A stretch of DNA of 40,857 nucleotides from an uncultured Nitratifractor sp. (GTDB lineage: Bacteria; Campylobacterota; Campylobacteria; Campylobacterales; Sulfurovaceae), in contig CAJXJF010000009.1 in NCBI GenBank assembly GCA_913054475.1, positions 1 to 40,857 on the forward strand, given 5' to 3'. How positions within the stretch are numbered: position 1 is the first letter of the stretch; each line of letters starts with the position of its first letter. A model generated the notes under the pieces. That model made no database searches and was not told where the DNA came from. It worked only from the letters and a program-made list of their open reading frames with translations. Shown one piece after another: positions 30,571 to 40,857 of the stretch. Both the position numbers and the translations under genes were made by a program.

Positions 30571-32166
30571 TCATTTTTTGCACCCAAGTGTACTTCTTGC
30601 CTCTTCGCTATCAGCCAGCTCGCAGAGCTTTTTTATCTTCTCTTCGCTACTTTCGTCAAATACGGCATTTTGCTCTTTTAGCCAAATAAGCGGATCTCTA
30701 TCTATTGCTTTTGCAATATTGTCTATCATGATTTTTTTAAAATGGTGATTATTGAATCTCAGTGGCATATATTTATATTTTTTTACCCTATCGATAAGCT
30801 CTTTCGCTTCAGCTCTTTTTAGTCTTTTTTTATCTATTTTGTCTAAATTTTCGATTTTTTTGAAGTTGCTGCCATAGAGGAGCGCTCCTTGGAGTTTGCA
30901 CCCTTCCAGCTTGCTATTGGATAGATTTGCAAACCATAGATTGGCGGCTTGCAAGTTGGCATTTTGGAGATTGGCGCTGTGCAGATTGCTATATTTCAAA
31001 TCGGCTATTTTCAAATCGCTACCATTTAAGTTTGCATTGGATAAATCGCTGTTGCACAAGCGCGCACCCTCGAGTTTGGCTCCGACGAGATTGCTACCCT
31101 CGAGCTTCGCTCCGAAAAGATCGCAATATTTCAGGTTCGCATAGGACAAGTCGGCATTTTGCAAATCGACGACACCCAAGTCGGCACCTTGCAAGCTGGC
31201 CTTTGCCAAATGTGCTCTTTTGAGATTGCTCAAGCTCAAATCCGAACCATCGAAGCGAGAATTTTCGAAATAGAGCTTTGCAAAATCGCATTCGCTAAAT
31301 TTCGCCAATCTAAAACTTCTATTGGAGAAGATTTTTGTCTCTTTGTCTTTTGTCTGCAGGAGGAATCTGCCGGTAAATGTCAAGCTATTGCAATCTATTT
31401 CGATTGTGGGCAATAAAATCTCATCCAATGCCGGTATAAAATCTTGTACTTCGGAGTGCAACTTGCTGAAGAACTTAATGTCATCCTTTGAAAAATCACT
31501 TTTGTTTATCGTATAGAGTATTTCATAGTGATATAGCGATAGGATGCAAATCGAGCAGAGTATAGATAGAAACTTTAGCAAAAGAGAACCCCTGTCTCTA
31601 TCTTTTGTAAATTCGAAAATATTTCCAAAAAGAGATATCGTCAAGATAGAGAGAAAAATCAAAACGAGATGCCAAGAGCTGGTACCGAAGTTTTGGTAAC
31701 GCCCAAACCCAAGATAGAGTATAGTCGATGTGAATATCGGTATATAAAGTATAACGATATAGAAGATAGTCTTTGTCGTTTTGTAAATGAGATTGTTTTT
31801 AAAATTGAGTAGTATTTTCTCGTATGGGCCGGCAGGGATTATCTCTATTTTATTCTTATAGTTGAGATATATATCCAATAGAGCTCTTCTGTATTCATGA
31901 ATGAGCCTTAGTAGTTCGAGTTGAAGTAGGAAAAGAAGTAGTGGCATAACCGAATAGAAGGATACAAAGGGGAGTCCGATATCAAGGAGCGGTATCTTTA
32001 TCTTTTCGAGCATAAAGATATCTTCATCGTTCGTTACAGATACGGTAAATAGTATATATAGGCAAAATAGGAAAAGAGATATCATTATATTCGATATGCG
32101 CCATGAGTCTATCCATAGGCTTCTATTGGAGATAAGTTTCTTGGCGGATTTCACTCTTTGTACCAT
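30571..32166 (-). CDS. Pentapeptide-repeat protein with N-terminal transmembrane region
   Basis: A(D/N)L-x-x repeats LQGADLGVVDLQNADLSYANLKYCDLFGAKLEGSNLVGAKLEG...; hydrophobic N-terminal half. Confidence 0.88.
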   Translation of the reverse strand: MVQRVKSAKKLISNRSLWIDSWRISNIMISLFLFCLYILFTVSVTNDEDIFMLEKIKIPLLDIGLPFVSFYSVMPLLLFLLQLELLRLIHEYRRALLDIYLNYKNKIEIIPAGPYEKILLNFKNNLIYKTTKTIFYIVILYIPIFTSTILYLGFGRYQNFGTSSWHLVLIFLSILTISLFGNIFEFTKDRDRGSLLLKFLSILCSICILSLYHYEILYTINKSDFSKDDIKFFSKLHSEVQDFIPALDEILLPTIEIDCNSLTFTGRFLLQTKDKETKIFSNRSFRLAKFSECDFAKLYFENSRFDGSDLSLSNLKRAHLAKASLQGADLGVVDLQNADLSYANLKYCDLFGAKLEGSNLVGAKLEGARLCNSDLSNANLNGSDLKIADLKYSNLHSANLQNANLQAANLWFANLSNSKLEGCKLQGALLYGSNFKKIENLDKIDKKRLKRAEAKELIDRVKKYKYMPLRFNNHHFKKIMIDNIAKAIDRDPLIWLKEQNAVFDESSEEKIKKLCELADSEEARSTLGCKK

Positions 32167-32356: not shown

Positions 32357-33301
32357 ATGCAACAGATGAACAATCTCAAGGCGATCCTACACTCTAAGCG
32401 AGCCAATATCTACTATCTCGAGATGTGCAGGGTGATGCAAAAAGATGGTAGAGTGGTCTATCTAAGCGAAGAGCGCAAGGAGTTTCGCTACTGGAACATT
32501 CCGATAGCCAATACCAACTGCCTGCTGCTTGGAACGGGCACTTCGATTACCCAGGCGGCTATGCGTATGCTCTCGCAAGCTGGTGTGTTGGTGGGATTTT
32601 GCGGTGGTGGAGGCACTCCGCTATTTTCGGGTACGGAGGTGGAGTGGCTTATGCCTCAAAGCGAATATCGTCCCACACGCTTCGTGCAGAAGTGGCTCTC
32701 TTTTTGGTTCGACGATTCCAAACGCCTAGAGGCGGCCAAAATCTTTCAAGAGAGCAGGGTACTCTTCATCAAAAAGGTCTGGAGCAAAGAGCGCGAATTT
32801 GTGAACGAGGGTCTGGAGGTAGGCGAGATCGATGAGATACTCGAAAACTACAAAAGAGCCTGCAAGGGGGCTAATGAAACTGTCAAACTGCTCCAACTGG
32901 AGGCCGATTTGACCAAAAGATTGTATAGATATGTAGCCGAAAGAACGGGACAAAGCGGTTTTAGCAGAGATCGAGATGCTGCTGATGGTGCAAACCGCTT
33001 TCTCAATCATGGCAACTATCTGGCCTACGGTCTGGGGGCTACGGCGTTGTGGGCTCTGGGTATTTCGCACGCTTTTGCCGTAATGCACGGAAAGACGAGA
33101 CGCGGGGCGCTGGTCTTCGATGTGGCCGATCTAATCAAGGATGCCATCGTATTGCCATGGGCCTTTGTGGGGGCGAGAAACGAGCTCGACGAGCAGTCGT
33201 TTCGCGCACAGATACTACAGAGCTTCATCTCCTACAAGGCGATGGATAGGATGATAGAGACTATAGAGGATGTGATCGATACATTGGGGGTGGCTCCATG
33301 A
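32357..33301 (+). CDS. cas1: CRISPR-associated endonuclease Cas1, subtype I-F
   Basis: Position upstream of cas2-3; SGFSRDRDAADGANRFLNHGNYLAYGL and AFAVMHGKTRRGALVFDVADLIKDA Cas1 motifs. Confidence 0.95.
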   Translation: MQQMNNLKAILHSKRANIYYLEMCRVMQKDGRVVYLSEERKEFRYWNIPIANTNCLLLGTGTSITQAAMRMLSQAGVLVGFCGGGGTPLFSGTEVEWLMPQSEYRPTRFVQKWLSFWFDDSKRLEAAKIFQESRVLFIKKVWSKEREFVNEGLEVGEIDEILENYKRACKGANETVKLLQLEADLTKRLYRYVAERTGQSGFSRDRDAADGANRFLNHGNYLAYGLGATALWALGISHAFAVMHGKTRRGALVFDVADLIKDAIVLPWAFVGARNELDEQSFRAQILQSFISYKAMDRMIETIEDVIDTLGVAP

Positions 33302-36300
33302 TGGTACTCTTCGTCTCCCAGTGTCAGAAGCGGGCCAAAAAGCGCAGCAGGCGCGTACTCGACACCTTCGCCGAGCGTATTGGCGACGATACTTGGCTAA
33401 CACTGATTACGGACGAAGGGCTCAAGGCGGTACGGGGATTGCTTCGCCGTAGTGCGAGCAAGAGTACGGCTGTGAGTTGTCACCGTATCAGGGGATACAA
33501 TAGTAGCGAGCTTTTGTGGATCGTCGGCAATCGCGACAAATTCGACGAAAGGGGGAGAGTGCCGGTGCATATGACTACCAAGCCTCTTTTGCAGCTCTAT
33601 AGCGAGCATGACTGGAGATATATCGGACTCTTGCAGAGCCTGACGGTCGTAGCCGGTCTTTTGCACGACTGGGGTAAAGCCAACGATGCTTTTCAGAAGA
33701 AACTCACAGAGAGAAAAGCCATATCCGATCCGTTGAGACACGAGTGGGTCAGCGCTATGCTGTTGGGGGCTTTTGTCGCTATCGATCCGCAGACATGGTT
33801 GAAGCGGCTGTATGATGGGCGCATCGACAAAAAGGCTATTCTCGATGGTATCAAAGGATTCGAACTCAAAGCTTTTGGGGAATTCCCCCTTAGTGCCCAA
33901 GCGGTGGCGTGGCTTATATTGACCCATCACAAATTGCCGACCCCATATTTCCGGGCAAAAGAGCTTGCAGAAGAGTATAGTGGCGAGATTTTGGAGGGTT
34001 TTGCCGAGTTTTTCGCCTATGTCGATGCCGATTGGGGATATAGCTACGAGGGTGATATCGATCGTGTGACGAGTTTTTCCAAGGGCTTGCTCGAAGAGGC
34101 TACGGATTGGAAAAAACGCTTGAGTCGATGGGCAAAAAAGCTCGACTCTTACCAAGAGCTACTCGACGAACTTGCCATCAACGGTGCATTGCGAGCTCTT
34201 TTGCACCATGCGAGGGTGGCATTGATGCTTGGTGATTATGGCTACTCTTCGGATGAAGCTCGAGAGGGTTGGCACGATTGTTGCGGACTCTATGCCAATA
34301 CAAAACGAGACGGCACTCTGAAGCAGAGGCTCGATGAACATCTTTGTGGGGTGGCAGATTTGGCCAAAGTCGCCACCTATCGCTTTTTGCACTACGAAAG
34401 AGAGCTTCCCCGTGCTCACGATATCAAAAAATTGCTAAAGGCATCTCCCGCACCCTTTGCTTGGCAGGATAAAGCGGCTATGACAGTATGGGAGCATTAT
34501 GGAAAAAGGGGACTTCAAGAGGGCTTTTTCGGTATAGATATGGCCAGTACGGGCAAGGGCAAGACTGTTGCCAATGCCAAAATCATGCACTCTCTACGAA
34601 GAGATAGGAGCCTGCGCTATGTCTTGGCTCTGGGGCTTCGCACACTGACTTTGCAAACCGCAGAGGAGTATCGCAATCGTCTAAGGATGGATGAAGAGCA
34701 GGTTGCGGAGGTCATTGGCTCTCGTGCTATCGGAGAGCTCTACGGTGAATCGGAGGATAGGGATAAGGATAGACTCTTTAGCGGTTCGGAGTCGGCAGAA
34801 AGGCTCTGGAGCGACTGGATATCGTGGGAGAGAGCTGTTGGCGGTCGGATGGACGAGATTATACTCAAGGAGGAGAAAGCCAAGAATCTGCTCTATGCCC
34901 CCGTATTGGTATGTACCATAGATCATATGATGGGTGCGGTAGATACGGTCAGAGGCGGTGCTCATCTTCTGCCGGCTCTGCGTCTGATGGGTTCGGATCT
35001 CGTCATCGACGAGATCGACGATTTTACAGGTGCGGATCTGATAGCTATCGGTAGGCTGCTCTTCCTTGTCGGGATGCTGGGAAGACGGGTAATGCTCTCT
35101 TCGGCTACGATTCCGCCCGATTTGGCCGAAGGGTTTTTTCATGCATACGCGCAAGGGTGGCGACACTACTCCCGTTTCAAAGAGGGGGTGGCAGATAGGG
35201 TACATGCCTTTTGGGCTGATGAATTCGGTGCCAAAATCGAAGCTCTGCCCAACGATGCGAAGGTGTGCGAAAACTATCGTATCTGCCATGCCGATTTCGT
35301 GCGCAGACGCCTGAAAAAGCTACGGAAGTTTCCTGCGAGGCGCAAGGCCGAGATAGTCGCTTTGGGCGAGAAGGAGAGAGGAGGGGAGGCAGAGTATTTC
35401 GAAACGATGCTTTCGGCTATTTTGAGACTGCACGAGCGTCACCATATCGTCGATCCCGAGAGTGGGAAACGAGTCTCTTTCGGTGTAGTGAGGATGGCGA
35501 ATATAGGGCCATGTGTGGATTTCGCCAAATATCTCTGCTATGCGCAGTGTAGCGGCGCGGATTTGAAGATTATGCCCTACCATTCGAGGCAGGTGCTACT
35601 CTTGCGTCATGCTCAGGAGCGCTATCTCGATACTATCTTGAAGCGCAAAGAGGGCCCCGAAGAGACTCCAAAAGCACTGGAAGATGCCGTGGTGCGAAGG
35701 CATATTGGGGGAGCTACGACTCGAAATGTACTCTTTGTGGTGCTTGCCACTCCGATAGAGGAGGTGGGTAGAGACCACGATTTCGACTGGGCGCTCATAG
35801 AGCCATCTTCATGGAGAAGTGTGATACAGATGGCAGGCAGGGTGCTTCGTCATCGGGAGATGGAGCCAAAAAGTCCCAATATCGCCATCATGCAGTACAA
35901 CTATAGAGCCTATGTCGAACATAGGAAGATCGCTTTTACAAGACCTGGTTTCGAAGACGAAGAGCATAGGCTCGAAACTCACGATATGCAAAAGTTGATC
36001 GATACGCAGAGCATCTGCGAACGACTCGACGCTTCATGGAGGATCGTCAAAGCCCAAAAGCTCGATGAGCGCCGAAGATTGGTAGATCTGGAGCATAGTG
36101 TTATCGCGCAGGCTCTTACAGGCTACGATAATTGCGGTCCTGAGAGTCTGGAGGGGTATTTGAGCGGTGATTGGTATCTGACCGCCCTGCCACAGATAGC
36201 CAATGCGTTTCGCTTGAGCCAAAAAGAGATCACCCTCTATCTCGTATATGACGATAGGCGTGAGAGATACTTTTTTGCCGAACTGGATGAAGACGACTCT

Positions 36301-36534
36301 ATCGTCGATAGGGAGAGAATATTGAATATAGAGTGGGAAAATCTGGATATATCTATGCGCAGACGGCTCTGGTTGCAACACGACTACGACACTCTCGTGC
36401 AAGAGCAGAGCCGATTGAGAGGATGGGGCGCGAACAAGGTGAGATTGCGTTTTGGAGAGTTGAAGATACCTGCATACGCGGACGGCTACAGATACTCCTA
36501 TGTCTTTGGTGCAGTGCTGAGCGATGATGAATAA
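33298..36534 (+). CDS. cas3f: Cas2-Cas3 fusion helicase/nuclease, subtype I-F
   Basis: Cas2-like N-terminus (MMVLFVSQCQKRAKKRSRRVLDTF), HD motif LLHDWGKANDAF, helicase STGKGKTVANAKIM, LVIDEIDDF, 1078 aa; 4-bp overlap with cas1. Confidence 0.95.
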   Translation: MMVLFVSQCQKRAKKRSRRVLDTFAERIGDDTWLTLITDEGLKAVRGLLRRSASKSTAVSCHRIRGYNSSELLWIVGNRDKFDERGRVPVHMTTKPLLQLYSEHDWRYIGLLQSLTVVAGLLHDWGKANDAFQKKLTERKAISDPLRHEWVSAMLLGAFVAIDPQTWLKRLYDGRIDKKAILDGIKGFELKAFGEFPLSAQAVAWLILTHHKLPTPYFRAKELAEEYSGEILEGFAEFFAYVDADWGYSYEGDIDRVTSFSKGLLEEATDWKKRLSRWAKKLDSYQELLDELAINGALRALLHHARVALMLGDYGYSSDEAREGWHDCCGLYANTKRDGTLKQRLDEHLCGVADLAKVATYRFLHYERELPRAHDIKKLLKASPAPFAWQDKAAMTVWEHYGKRGLQEGFFGIDMASTGKGKTVANAKIMHSLRRDRSLRYVLALGLRTLTLQTAEEYRNRLRMDEEQVAEVIGSRAIGELYGESEDRDKDRLFSGSESAERLWSDWISWERAVGGRMDEIILKEEKAKNLLYAPVLVCTIDHMMGAVDTVRGGAHLLPALRLMGSDLVIDEIDDFTGADLIAIGRLLFLVGMLGRRVMLSSATIPPDLAEGFFHAYAQGWRHYSRFKEGVADRVHAFWADEFGAKIEALPNDAKVCENYRICHADFVRRRLKKLRKFPARRKAEIVALGEKERGGEAEYFETMLSAILRLHERHHIVDPESGKRVSFGVVRMANIGPCVDFAKYLCYAQCSGADLKIMPYHSRQVLLLRHAQERYLDTILKRKEGPEETPKALEDAVVRRHIGGATTRNVLFVVLATPIEEVGRDHDFDWALIEPSSWRSVIQMAGRVLRHREMEPKSPNIAIMQYNYRAYVEHRKIAFTRPGFEDEEHRLETHDMQKLIDTQSICERLDASWRIVKAQKLDERRRLVDLEHSVIAQALTGYDNCGPESLEGYLSGDWYLTALPQIANAFRLSQKEITLYLVYDDRRERYFFAELDEDDSIVDRERILNIEWENLDISMRRRLWLQHDYDTLVQEQSRLRGWGANKVRLRFGELKIPAYADGYRYSYVFGAVLSDDE

Positions 36535-36546
36535 GCATGAGTAGGT

Positions 36547-36552
36547 TATAAT
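36547..36552 (+). promoter_or_regulatory. Candidate -10 box (TATAAT) for transcript starting at the first degenerate repeat
   Basis: Exact TATAAT; +1 would fall at ~36559, the first base of psi-repeat 1; no good -35 seen. Confidence 0.4.
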
Positions 36553-36558
36553 CGCCTC

Positions 36559-36586
36559 TCTACTGCCGCATAGTGTAGCTTATAAA
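36559..36586 (+). repeat. psi-repeat 1, degenerate I-F CRISPR repeat (TCTACTGCCGCATAGTGTAGCTTATAAA)
   Basis: Compared with array repeat GTGAACTGCCGTGTAGGTAGCTTAGAAA: shared ACTGCCG, GTAGCTTA-AAA; 1-nt loop insertion; 3' octamer CTTATAAA vs CTTAGAAA. Confidence 0.75.
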
Positions 36587-36604
36587 ATAGTACTTGAGAA
36601 ATCT
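36587..36604 (+). ncRNA. Pseudo-spacer ATAGTACTTGAGAAATCT of a putative CreR-like crRNA (mini-CRISPR 36559-36632)
   Basis: Flanked by psi-repeats; begins directly after the CTTATAAA handle; near-identical copy in csy1 promoter at 36638. Confidence 0.6.
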
Positions 36605-36632
36605 TTTGACTGCCGTATAGGCAGTAAAAATA
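36605..36632 (+). repeat. psi-repeat 2, degenerate CRISPR repeat with perfect Cas6f-type hairpin CTGCCGTATAGGCAG (36610-36624)
   Basis: 5-bp Watson-Crick stem CTGCC/GGCAG with GTATA loop, as in canonical I-F repeats; 3' handle is degenerate (TAAAAATA). Confidence 0.75.
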
Positions 36633-36635
36633 TTG

Positions 36636-36655
36636 CCATAGTACTTGACAAATAA
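36636..36655 (+). promoter_or_regulatory. Putative self-target: CC PAM (36636-36637) plus protospacer ATAGTACTTGACAAATAA (36638-36655) overlapping the csy1 -35 box
   Basis: 15/18 identity to the pseudo-spacer (mismatches at positions 12, 17, 18). Confidence 0.65.
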
Positions 36656-36673
36656 TAACATAAGTGTTAGACT
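36645..36673 (+). promoter_or_regulatory. Predicted sigma70-type promoter of the csy1-csy2-csy3-cas6f operon: TTGACA-17-TAGACT
   Basis: Exact TTGACA at 36645-36650, 17-bp spacing, TAGACT at 36668-36673; ATGs of the operon downstream. Confidence 0.6.
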
Positions 36674-36683
36674 TCTATTGTCT

Positions 36684-36705
36684 AATGCCGTACAGGTATA
36701 AAAAT
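36684..36705 (+). repeat. psi-repeat 3, degenerate repeat hairpin in the predicted csy1 5' UTR (AATGCCGTACAGGTATAAAAAT)
   Basis: Stem ATGCC/GGTAT with GTACA loop: bottom C-G pair replaced by A-U, stem preserved. Confidence 0.5.
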
Positions 36706-36730
36706 CTCATACTTTTGGAAAGGAGGGGGC

Positions 36731-37990
36731 GTGGATGTTTCGATTGTAACGGACTATTTGAACGAACGCAGAGAGGATTGGCTAAAAAAGAAGCTGAAAA
36801 AGAGCATGTCACCCGAAGAGATTGCCAAAATCGAGGAAGAGGCGCAAGAGAGATTTTCACTGCAAAGATGGCTCGAAGATGCCTCTAGGCGTGCCGGGCA
36901 GATGAGTATGTCCACTCATCCGTGCACATTTTCGCATCCGAGTGCAAGAAGGACGAAAGAGGGTTCCGTAACGCCTGTGGTCTGTGAAGCGTGCTTCGAA
37001 GCCGATGGATTGCTAAGAAGCGGAAATGTGAGAGAGAGCGAGATGGACGCACTGGGCAATGCGGCGGTACTCGATGTCTATAAGCTGCTCGACTTGAGAA
37101 TGGATGATGGCAGAAGGCTCATAGAGCATATCAAGGAAGAGAGCGAAATAGGCAAAGCCGTCGTATCGAGCGCAGGAGGTGATTACGAGAGTGTCAGAGA
37201 GGGCTTTTTGGCGATGTTGGAGAGCCCTGATGATGCAGTGGTGACAAGCTCGAAGATAAAGCAGGTCTATTTCCCTATCGACGGACAAAACTATCATCTA
37301 CTATCCATATTGAGCAATTCGGGCATTATCTATCGTCTCAGGCGTACGATCGATCGAATGCGTTTTGGCCAAGAGGCGAAAGAGCGCCGCGAAGCGAGGA
37401 AGAAAAGGGAGTGCGCCGAGGATCATATGGAGATATACGATTTGCTTCTCTTGGGTTATGGCGGTACGAAACCGCAGAATGTTTCGGTACTCAACAACGC
37501 TATGGGCGGGCGCACATATCTGTTTCGCACTATGCCGCCGGAGCTTCTTTCTCGTCGGGTGCGCTTCCCAAAAAAAGACTTTTTCGAAGAGTCGCTTTCG
37601 TCGAAAGAGTCACAAGAGCACTTCAAGGCTCTATCCAAAATCGTAGCTATCGACTACAACAATCTCAATATCCGCAAAGCCCGCAAGCGACACTACGAAG
37701 CTTTGCTCGAGATAGTGGTAGAGACTATGTGGAGTCTGAGGATGGTAAGCGACAAGCAGTTTTACGAAGCTGCTTCGAAGCTCAAAACTTGGCAGAAAAT
37801 CTGGCTCGTAGAAGCCTACCGAGATAAACGCACCGAAGATGAGTCGTGGCTCAAAGAGGTCAAAGAGGCGATCGGCCGATGGATCGCCGGGGGTATCGAG
37901 AGGCATAGCTCCAAAAATCTGGCGTTCGGCTCCGAGGAGATGAAAGATATACATACAGTTATAGAGAGATACGAGGAGGCGTTGAGATGA
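36731..37990 (+). CDS. csy1: Type I-F CRISPR-associated protein Csy1 (Cas8f), GTG start
   Basis: LLGYGGTKPQNVSVLNNAMGGRTYLFRTMPP motif; AGGAGG ribosome-binding site at 36721. Confidence 0.93.
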   Translation: MDVSIVTDYLNERREDWLKKKLKKSMSPEEIAKIEEEAQERFSLQRWLEDASRRAGQMSMSTHPCTFSHPSARRTKEGSVTPVVCEACFEADGLLRSGNVRESEMDALGNAAVLDVYKLLDLRMDDGRRLIEHIKEESEIGKAVVSSAGGDYESVREGFLAMLESPDDAVVTSSKIKQVYFPIDGQNYHLLSILSNSGIIYRLRRTIDRMRFGQEAKERREARKKRECAEDHMEIYDLLLLGYGGTKPQNVSVLNNAMGGRTYLFRTMPPELLSRRVRFPKKDFFEESLSSKESQEHFKALSKIVAIDYNNLNIRKARKRHYEALLEIVVETMWSLRMVSDKQFYEAASKLKTWQKIWLVEAYRDKRTEDESWLKEVKEAIGRWIAGGIERHSSKNLAFGSEEMKDIHTVIERYEEALR

Positions 37991-38871
37991 TAGCGTTGAT
38001 CATTCCCCATATTCGGATACAAAACGCCAATGCCCTTTCCAGCCCATATACGGTGGGCTTCCCTGCCATGACGGCGTGGTTGGGGGCGGCACACGCTCTG
38101 CAGCGGCATATGAGAGCTTTTTTCGAAAAGTTCGAGGTTCTCTCTGTCGGAGTGATTAGCCACAAAGCCGACCTCAGACTATACAAGGGGCGGGGTGATT
38201 TCGTCTATTCGGCAATCAATCCTGCCTTTACGCTCGATAAGAGCGGCAAGAGGGCATCTATCATCGAGGAGCCGCGTATCCATCTGGATGTATCGCTGGT
38301 GCTGGAGATAAGAGGGGTACGAAATCTGCAAGAGGGTGACTTTTTGCAAAGACTCGAGCGGATTTTGCATACGAAAATGCGCATTGCCGGCGGAGAGATT
38401 CTGGATTTTGGCAGAGCGTATATCAACAGAGCCCTCGACCACTCCTCTTTGCCGCATCTGCCTGGGCCCGGCTATGCCATCATCTCTCGGCGCGAATGGA
38501 TGAAAGAGGCGATGAGAGAGGGCAAGGACGCTCTCGATGCTATCATGGAGGCTATGGCGCTGCATTTTCACTGCCGCGAAGAGCCCTGCGCGAAAGAGGA
38601 TGAGCGTGTCGAAGTATCCTGGGAGACGAAGCGAAAATACGAGGGGTGGGTCGTCCCTCTGGCAGTTGGCTTTTACGCCATCACAGAGCCGAGTCGGGCA
38701 CGAAACGCCCGAGATTCGCAAACCCCGCATCGCTTTGCCGAAAGTGTGGTGACGCTTGGGGAGTTTCGGATGCCTCACCGGCTCGATAGTATCGACGAGA
38801 TGATGTGGTCTTACCATTATATAAAAGAGAAAAACCTATATCTATGCGAAACCAAAACGACAAAGGAGTGA
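37987..38871 (+). CDS. csy2: Type I-F CRISPR-associated protein Csy2 (Cas5f)
   Basis: IPHIRIQNANALSSPYTVGFPAMTAWLGAAHAL N-terminus; ATGA overlap with csy1. Confidence 0.93.
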   Translation: MIALIIPHIRIQNANALSSPYTVGFPAMTAWLGAAHALQRHMRAFFEKFEVLSVGVISHKADLRLYKGRGDFVYSAINPAFTLDKSGKRASIIEEPRIHLDVSLVLEIRGVRNLQEGDFLQRLERILHTKMRIAGGEILDFGRAYINRALDHSSLPHLPGPGYAIISRREWMKEAMREGKDALDAIMEAMALHFHCREEPCAKEDERVEVSWETKRKYEGWVVPLAVGFYAITEPSRARNARDSQTPHRFAESVVTLGEFRMPHRLDSIDEMMWSYHYIKEKNLYLCETKTTKE

Positions 38872-38874
38872 AAA

Positions 38875-39897
38875 ATGGCGAAAAAATCTACAGTTGCTTC
38901 GGTATTGGCTTATGAGAAAAAATTGGTTCCCTCCGATGGATATATGTATGGCACTATCTGGGAAAAACGACACGATAGAGCACAAAGAGCACCTTTGAAG
39001 CTGGTGGAAAAATCGGTACGAGGTACTATATCCAACCGTCTAAAAGGTGCAGTCAAAAACGATCCACTCAAGCTCAACGCCGAAGTGGAGAAGCCCAATT
39101 TGCAGACCGTGGATAGTTGCGCTCTTGCGGAGAACCACGATACGCTTCATCTGCACTTTACTCTCAAAATTCTGGGAGGCCTGCAAGAGCCTTCGGCATG
39201 TAACTCTCCCGAATTTCTGCAAAAGTATCAAAGGGCGCTATCCGAATACAAAGCGAATGAAAATTTCGCGGAACTTGGCTTGCGCTATGCGCTCAATCTG
39301 GCCAATGCGCGCTTTTTGTGGCGAAATAGAGTCGGAGCCGAAAAGATAGAGGTGATTCTCAGAGATCTTGCCAACGACAAGAGCTGGACATTCGATGCCA
39401 AAAAGTTTTCGATTCGTAATATGCGAAGCGATGACGAGAGTGTAAAAGAGTTGGGAAGTGTCATAGCCCGAACATTGGCGAGCGAAGAGGATTTTTTGAT
39501 GCTCGATGTAGAGTGTTTTGCCAAAATCGGACTCTCTCAAGAGGTCTATCCGAGCGAAGAGCTGGTATTGGACAAGGGGCAGGGTAAAAAGAGTAGGGTA
39601 TTGTACGAAGTTGACGGTATCGCCGCCATGCATTCTCAGAAGCTGGGCAATGCGCTTCGCACCATCGATACCTGGTATAGCGAGTATGATACGCAAAAGA
39701 GGGTGATTGCAATAGAGCCGTATGGAGCGGTCACCAGTATGGGCAGGGCTTTTAGAAGCCCTAAGAACAAAGAGGATTTCTACACACTCTTCGAGCGTTT
39801 CATCGAAGATATAGAGAGTCTGCAAAGCCACGAAAGGGATTATGTAGCGGCTGTTCTGGTGCGTGGCGGTGTCTTCGGAGAGAGCGACAAGGATTGA
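38875..39897 (+). CDS. csy3: Type I-F CRISPR-associated protein Csy3 (Cas7f)
   Basis: VASVLAYEKKLVPSDGYMYGTIWE, LNLANARFLWRNRVGAEKI motifs, operon position. Confidence 0.94.
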   Translation: MAKKSTVASVLAYEKKLVPSDGYMYGTIWEKRHDRAQRAPLKLVEKSVRGTISNRLKGAVKNDPLKLNAEVEKPNLQTVDSCALAENHDTLHLHFTLKILGGLQEPSACNSPEFLQKYQRALSEYKANENFAELGLRYALNLANARFLWRNRVGAEKIEVILRDLANDKSWTFDAKKFSIRNMRSDDESVKELGSVIARTLASEEDFLMLDVECFAKIGLSQEVYPSEELVLDKGQGKKSRVLYEVDGIAAMHSQKLGNALRTIDTWYSEYDTQKRVIAIEPYGAVTSMGRAFRSPKNKEDFYTLFERFIEDIESLQSHERDYVAAVLVRGGVFGESDKD

Positions 39898-39899
39898 CA

Positions 39900-40493
39900 A
39901 TGCTGCTTTGCTACAAGGAGATCGAGATCTTCGACGATATGGAGATAGGTATGGGTTTTGTCTGGAGTCGGCTATACGATACTCTTCATCGTAAATTCGT
40001 TTCGATTCAAGATTCCGACGCTCATATAGCTGTGGGTGTTTCATTTCCCGATTATGGTGCGGGGACTTTTCGACTCGGTGCCAGATTGCGACTCTTTTCA
40101 CCTGACGAGCGGATTTTGCAAAAGCTCGAACTAAATGAGATACTCGATATATTGGGTGATTATATCGATATGAGCGAAACGAAAGAGGTACCCACCGAAC
40201 ATAGCTATGCCCTCTTTTCTCGAAAACAGTTCAAAAAGAGCAACCCTCTACGACTCGCACGCCGCTACGCCAAACGACACGGTGTGAGTCTGCAAGAGGC
40301 GATAGGCCGATATGCCGCTTTGGATAGCGAAAAGGTTATCAGAGAAAATAATCTACCTTTCATAAATATGAATAGCGCTTCTACCAATCGGCGATACAAG
40401 CTCTTCGTCAAGAAAGAAGAGTCCGATATACGCCGCGACGGTGTATTCAACACCTTTGGCCTCGGAGGAGATGCGACGGTACCTATATTTTGA
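39900..40493 (+). CDS. cas6f: Type I-F CRISPR endoribonuclease Cas6f (Csy4)
   Basis: Last gene before array; VGVSFPDYGAGTFRLGARLRLFS; start at MLLCYKE. Confidence 0.92.
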   Translation: MLLCYKEIEIFDDMEIGMGFVWSRLYDTLHRKFVSIQDSDAHIAVGVSFPDYGAGTFRLGARLRLFSPDERILQKLELNEILDILGDYIDMSETKEVPTEHSYALFSRKQFKKSNPLRLARRYAKRHGVSLQEAIGRYAALDSEKVIRENNLPFINMNSASTNRRYKLFVKKEESDIRRDGVFNTFGLGGDATVPIF

Positions 40494-40623: not shown

Positions 40624-40857
40624 GTGAACTGCCGTGTAGGTAGCTTAGAAATCTTGTCCCCATATGCGCAACTGCGCCGACAAGTGAACTGCCGTGTAGG
40701 TAGCTTAGAAACAACTTGTCGAAGATTATATAAACAAACGCACGTGAACTGCCGTGTAGGTAGCTTAGAAAAATAACTCGGCATATATCGCGATAACTCG
40801 GCCGTGAACTGCCGTGTAGGTAGCTTAGAAATAAGCCAGAGGAGGTAGATATCGTTA
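40624..40857 (+). CRISPR. Type I-F CRISPR array, 4 identical 28-nt repeats GTGAACTGCCGTGTAGGTAGCTTAGAAA with 32-nt spacers; truncated by the window end
   Basis: Repeats at 40624-40651, 40684-40711, 40744-40771, 40804-40831; exact 60-bp period. Confidence 0.98.

Follow-up and report, generated by a model that had tools for sequence, protein, structure and literature searches.

The type I-F1 CRISPR-Cas locus of an uncultured Nitratifractor sp. (Campylobacterota) carries, between cas2/3 and csy1, a worn two-repeat mini-array (psiR1-psiS-psiR2) of the CreR type, through which the Csy complex probably represses its own operon. The mini-array lies apart from the CRISPR array and close to the cas genes, and the mini-array itself, the match between its guide and a target, the PAM beside that target, the overlap of the target with a predicted promoter and the conservation of this design across diverged systems are all features read directly from genome sequence. 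The window, by which we mean the entire 40,857-nt stretch of DNA that was analysed, is contig C9 of a 1.74 Mb genome in 87 contigs, and the locus at its end is complete, comprising cas1f, cas2/3f, csy1, csy2, csy3 and csy4 together with an array (Table 1). Its assignment to type I-F1 is based on the presence of cas1f, a fused cas2/3f, csy1-4 and a 28-nt repeat (GTGAACTGCCGTGTAGGTAGCTTAGAAA) with a CTGCC...GGYAG hairpin; as the array has a period of 60 nt, its spacers are 32 nt long. The gap separating cas2/3 from csy1 measures 196 nt and contains, in order, TATAAT, psiR1, psiS, psiR2, CC, the target, the csy1 promoter, psiR3 and a Shine-Dalgarno sequence, with csy1 starting at 36731. Beside the CRISPR locus, on the minus strand (window 30571-32166), lies a gene for a pentapeptide-repeat protein of 531 aa, and the DNA repeats within this gene (e.g. 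30886-31125) are probably coding repeats.

Table 1. Features of the type I-F1 locus and of its cas2/3-csy1 gap (window coordinates)
Feature	Position	Strand	Basis or remark
cas1f and cas2/3f	32357..36534	+	TIGR03637/TIGR02562, both above cut-off
TATAAT, predicted -10 of the mini-array (creR) promoter	36547..36552	+	sequence
psiR1, degenerate repeat with worn hairpin	36559..36586	+	5'-handle CTTATAAA retained (7/8 of CTTAGAAA)
Predicted mature mini-crRNA, 46 nt (8-nt handle, 18-nt guide, 20-nt 3' hairpin)	36579..36624	+	inferred from I-F Csy4 processing rules
psiS, 18-nt guide ATAGTACTTGAGAAATCT	36587..36604	+	
psiR2, repeat-like	36605..36632	+	hairpin CTGCC-GTATA-GGCAG intact; 3' eight bases degenerate (3/8)
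Csy4 site in psiR2	after 36624	+	predicted
CC PAM	36636..36637	+	CC in 29/29 loci, partly by construction
Target (protospacer) of psiS, over the csy1 -35 box	36638..36655	+	15/18
Predicted csy1 promoter, TTGACA-17-TAGACT	36645..36673	+	10/12, TG preceding second hexamer
psiR3, third repeat-like element, predicted 5' end of csy1 mRNA	36680..36707	+	15/28 to repeat
psiR3 hairpin, ATGCC-GTACA-GGTAT	36685-36699	+	
csy1 (cas8f), first in the csy1-csy2-csy3-csy4 operon, predicted repressed	36731..37990	+	TIGR02564
csy2, csy3, csy4 (cas6f)	37987..40493	+	TIGR02565/02566/02563, above cut-off
CRISPR array start, 28-nt repeat, 32-nt spacers	40624..40857	+	more repeats on contig C60

The initial annotation had described the guide as 18 nt long, against the 32 nt of the array spacers, and coordinates and letters agree with this when psiR2 is set in its 28-nt register. 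Transcription of the mini-array is predicted to start at about 36560, where the psiR1 hairpin begins, and a -10-like hexamer precedes psiR1 in all 11 of the co-directional loci listed. The fold of psiR2 beats 200 of 200 shuffled sequences (z -3.7), and the Rfam family CRISPR-DR4 matches exactly the bases of psiR2, with a score under the curators' cut-off; the one other Rfam match, to a snoRNA, was dismissed as chance. psiR1 folds poorly in silico (z 0.04), which makes formation of the 5'-handle uncertain. Aligned with its target, psiS shows the perfect seed (positions 1-8) that had been claimed for it, and also the two mismatches at positions 12 and 18, both multiples of six, the third falling at position 17. 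The TTGACA hexamer at 36645-36650 lies inside the target and is part of the best promoter-like site of the region, so that the partial match of psiS falls on a PAM-flanked site within a predicted cas-gene promoter, as is characteristic of CreR. A genome-wide search for the PAM and guide with at most 3 mismatches returned the template and the target alone, the reversed control pattern gave 2 matches in 1.74 Mb, and of the trials with shuffled guides 0.03% came down to 3 mismatches at a CC-flanked site of the upstream region.

The same design was found in many other loci. The 700 nt upstream of csy1 were scanned for handle-spacer-hairpin units, blind to mismatch position and with a CC, a psiR1 handle of at least 6/8 and a psiR2 stem of at least 4 bp as requirements, in 80 named csy1 loci and in loci from the family, order and class of the window and from other families of its order. 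An earlier generic scan, lenient at position 6, had let in real array spacers, and its mismatch counts were excluded from the statistics. The scanned loci yielded 61 mini-array-like units, 29 of which, in 29 loci including the window, have a spacer that differs from a CC-flanked site at 0-4 of 18 positions, a quality that shuffled guides attain (at most 4 of 18 at a CC-flanked site) in about 0.2% of cases. The other 32 units have at least 6 mismatches, making the distribution bimodal, and can mostly be explained as antisense readings or as artefacts of composition; no clear mini-array with a non-CC target was seen among the unmatched units. A CC was required by the scan, and a PAM-free search of the 29 loci gave identical sites. 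The 28 loci besides the window carry differing guides of their own, in 19 guide clusters, each matching the csy1-proximal CC-flanked site of its own locus, and since guides match their own region with 0-4 mismatches and reach 3 or fewer against the region of another locus in just 6 of 784 cross pairs, guide and target co-evolve. Conservation of the guide-target pair among related loci, a further hallmark of CreR, is therefore also found here. Mini-arrays run in the direction of csy1 in Campylobacterota and are mostly opposed to it in the other loci, chiefly Gammaproteobacterial; where cas3 abuts csy1 (L012/L020, L015, L017, L021/L100, L022, L055 and L105) there is neither gap nor mini-array. 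The psiR1 handle is retained at 7-8/8 in 29/29 loci, its stem being sometimes worn, and the 5-bp stem of psiR2 is likewise present in every one, with the handle of psiR2 itself decayed to 1-6/8. These retained parts are exactly the ones that would end in a Csy4-processed mini-crRNA, and the pattern is the footprint of such an RNA.

The positions of the mismatches indicate how these guides are read. In Class 1 complexes every sixth crRNA base is flipped out (PMC11127173), and mismatches at positions 6, 12 and 18 are for this reason the footprint expected if Csy reads the guides. When the window is set aside, the remaining 28 loci have 66 mismatches, of which 48 occupy these positions (15, 15 and 18, respectively) where 11 are expected (p 9e-24), and with one guide taken per similarity cluster (19 guides) the count is 34 of 46 (p 2e-17), the latter being the safer figure as independence of the mismatches is presupposed by the binomial tests. 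Positions 1-5, 7-11 and 13-15 stay paired in 27-29 of the 29 loci, and a thirtieth case, read by hand in L027, has mismatches at 6, 12, 14 and 18. The window obeys the six-base rule at 12 and 18 and breaks it at 17. As the flipped-out bases are unpaired in the Csy complex, drift is free at these positions, and mismatches there are neutral and diagnostic of a guide being read by Csy; it is guide length that blocks cutting.

Guide length follows a pattern of its own. The 29 guides measure 15 (n = 1), 18 (2), 19 (6), 20 (11) and 21 (1) nt or, in a longer group, 25 (4), 26 (1), 27 (2) and 28 (1) nt, none reaching the 32 nt at which Cas2/3 is licensed, and 25 of the 29 lie within 1 nt of 20 or 26 (p 6e-9 against a uniform distribution over 14-31). 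These are the lengths given by L = 6N-4, at which 20 and 26 nt correspond to 4 and 5 Cas7 subunits (PMC7296934). In the I-F1 system of Aggregatibacter, guides that fall short of 32 nt by 6-18 nt form R-loops and Cas2/3 is never triggered; both binding and R-loop formation occur at guide lengths of 14, 20 and 26 nt, with 14-nt guides binding weakly, and truncation lowers both binding affinity and in vivo effect (PMC7296934). Binding without destruction by a short guide, as proposed in the initial annotation, is thus well supported by a design conserved in 29 loci, by lengths near 20 or 26 and never 32, and by the Aggregatibacter precedent. The part of that proposal which rested on a short guide with a perfect seed, a PAM and no PAM-distal pairing stands, with the one correction that the flipped-out mismatches are neutral and do not cause the failure to cut. 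The guide of the window is 2 nt under the 20-nt mode, and in the Acinetobacter I-F CreA position 17 is essential, its mutation having abolished function (PMC10097628). Given its 18 nt and its mismatch at 17, the window guide may, on the precedents of the 14-nt guides and of CreA, repress weakly.

On the mechanism that we propose, the promoter before psiR1 would give rise to a short transcript, which Csy4 would cut after the psiR1 and psiR2 stems to release the mini-crRNA, and this would assemble with Csy1, Csy2, Csy4 and about four Csy3 subunits. The resulting Csy complex would find the CC and the seed at the csy1 -35 box, open a short R-loop and block RNA polymerase; because this R-loop, at about 18 bp, would fall far short of 32, recruitment of Cas2/3 would not be reached and the chromosome would stay uncut. 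The template of the guide should itself be safe from cutting because AAA (36584-36586) sits in the place of the PAM, as had been pointed out and as the sequence confirms. Repression would be stronger the more Csy complex is free and weaker once the Cas proteins are taken up by array crRNAs or anti-CRISPRs, and feedback on the csy operon would be the outcome of repression that tracks the free complex.

Elements of this kind are already known as CreR and CreA mini-arrays. The CreR systems studied experimentally by Liu and colleagues in 2023 reportedly belong to types I-B, I-E and V-A, from which the window differs in being of type I-F1, in coming from Campylobacterota and in having an 18-nt guide. 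Shmakov and colleagues (2023, NAR 51:8150) are said to have tested an I-F1 mini-array as regulatory, many such mini-arrays reportedly targeting cas8 promoters; like these, the mini-array of the window has two repeat-like elements and a spacer that partly matches the cas8 (csy1) promoter. According to the account of CreR in PMC12737573, it is established that mini-arrays mediate RNA-guided autorepression (Liu et al. 2023 Cell Host Microbe 31:1481), a crRNA-like RNA guiding the host effector to its own cas promoter by partial complementarity, as in the window. The autorepression described in that account is sensitive to crRNA load and to Acr proteins, which for the window is predicted. The Acinetobacter I-F CreA, a 20-nt guide in the cas3-csy1 gap, is experimentally a Csy-dependent repressor, and its system shares with the window the position in this gap, the psiR1-psiS-psiR2 arrangement, the CC PAM and a partial match, with natural mismatches at 6, 11 and 18; it differs in that it represses a toxic RNA, creT, and not csy1 (PMC10097628). 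The guides of the truncated Aggregatibacter I-F1 Cascades were engineered, whereas those of the window type are natural (PMC7296934). Racr RNA anti-CRISPRs are likewise solitary repeat-like RNAs that engage Cas6f/Cas7f, but they are phage-encoded inhibitors which form aberrant subcomplexes (PMC10651486), whereas the guide of the window is chromosomal and matches a promoter.

That a former mini-array has left a residual similarity to the promoter and is now non-functional in the window genome seems improbable. The worn psiR1 stem, the length of 18 nt and the mismatch at 17 would fit such a decayed relic, and most relatives have a better preserved psiR1 in both hairpin and handle; however, the seed, the PAM, the handle, the psiR2 stem and two of the three mismatch positions fit the constrained pattern, whereas free decay would strike all positions alike. 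It is very improbable that the guide acts in a CreTA/CrePA system and represses a small toxin expressed from the targeted promoter. The creTA of Acinetobacter has the same cas3-csy1 gap and 20-nt psiS design (PMC10097628), and in two Campylobacterota relatives, L044 and L027, the only loci in which toxin-like ORFs were seen, this gap holds a gene for a PBECR3-like RNase that follows a self-targeted promoter, but csy1 is the first gene downstream of the targeted promoter in the window, and the mere 57 nt from the predicted -10 to its start codon are taken up by psiR3 and the csy1 Shine-Dalgarno sequence, this leader showing no separate mini-ORF with a ribosome site of its own. Chance similarity, or simple duplication of a promoter without any link to Cas, is next to negligible and strongly disfavoured, for while the reversed control indicates that a genome holds a couple of equally good matches by chance, the location, the PAM and 28 parallels with a 6-nt mismatch periodicity speak against it.

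Several other arrangements were observed in the relatives. In two Campylobacterota I-F loci (L044:4310-4830 and L027:3925-4461) the order promoter-CC-target-psiR1-psiS-psiR2 is followed immediately by an ORF of 135-137 aa between cas3 and csy1, which resembles a PBECR3-like RNase (PF18812; 29.7 and 23.6 bits, below the 30-bit cut-off), making these loci candidates for a CrePA/CreTA-like unit in which guide and putative toxin share one self-repressed transcript. From this ORF to csy1 (L044:4843-4931, L027:4474-4562) the two have in common about 85 nt of highly conserved sequence, including 36 identical nt (CTAGCTTAACGTCCGAAACGAACTCCGATGGTTTTA), for which no Rfam match was found in L044. A more degenerate second copy of the guide (ATACAAACGGAATCAACAGA) follows psiR2 in L026 (4425-4560), suggesting that the spacer-repeat unit was duplicated. 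The target lies 200-300 nt before csy1 in L058, L062, L069, L082 and L099, as compared to about 70 elsewhere, which leaves room for a further gene or RNA, possibly a CreT/CreP; L058 is the only one of the five in which a short ORF with a ribosome site turned up. Mini-array-like units with CC-flanked matches away from csy1 (L057 at about 1287, L075 at about 10380 and L093 at about 10322) may control other genes.

The less expected part of the locus is psiR3. A psiR3-like hairpin follows the csy1 -10 box in 11 of the 11 Campylobacterota loci compared, which is notable given that chance alone should produce one in about 14-26% of such leaders. It starts 11-14 nt past the -10 box, and so right where the predicted mRNA begins, in seven of these loci and 25-44 nt past it in the other four, and its loop has the GNNNA form of the repeat in 10 of 11. 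Stem pairs altered on both sides amount to 7 cells against 2.6 expected, a value reached in 0 of 500 shuffles in a test that sequence kinship weakens, and the pairing is lost when the partner is slid by 1-3 columns. In loci with divergent mini-arrays a psiR3-like leader hairpin was not found beyond chance. We tentatively suggest, as a rather unlikely reading, a second layer of control in Campylobacterota I-F systems in which Csy4 binds or cuts psiR3 on the csy1-4 mRNA; as psiR3 mostly has another base in place of the closing G that precedes the Csy4 cut in the array repeat, Csy4 might bind without cutting. No precedent for a Cas6-hairpin mRNA was found in the literature. There are two alternatives, one being that psiR3 is a generic protective 5' hairpin and the other that it is left over from a duplication by which the target arose, the target being followed by a repeat, like the guide, in several loci. 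Were the suggestion correct, Csy4, encoded last in the operon, would control how much mini-crRNA repressor is supplied and also what becomes of the mRNA that encodes Csy4 itself.

Autorepression of the CreR type would mean that natural sub-length guides convert a nuclease system of immunity into a repressor that regulates itself. With a mismatch at every sixth base and guide lengths in 6-nt steps, genome sequence alone is sufficient to see how Csy reads DNA, and the comparative readout also reveals where the threshold of destruction lies. The 29 natural guide-target pairs may serve as a design table for type I-F repression without cutting.
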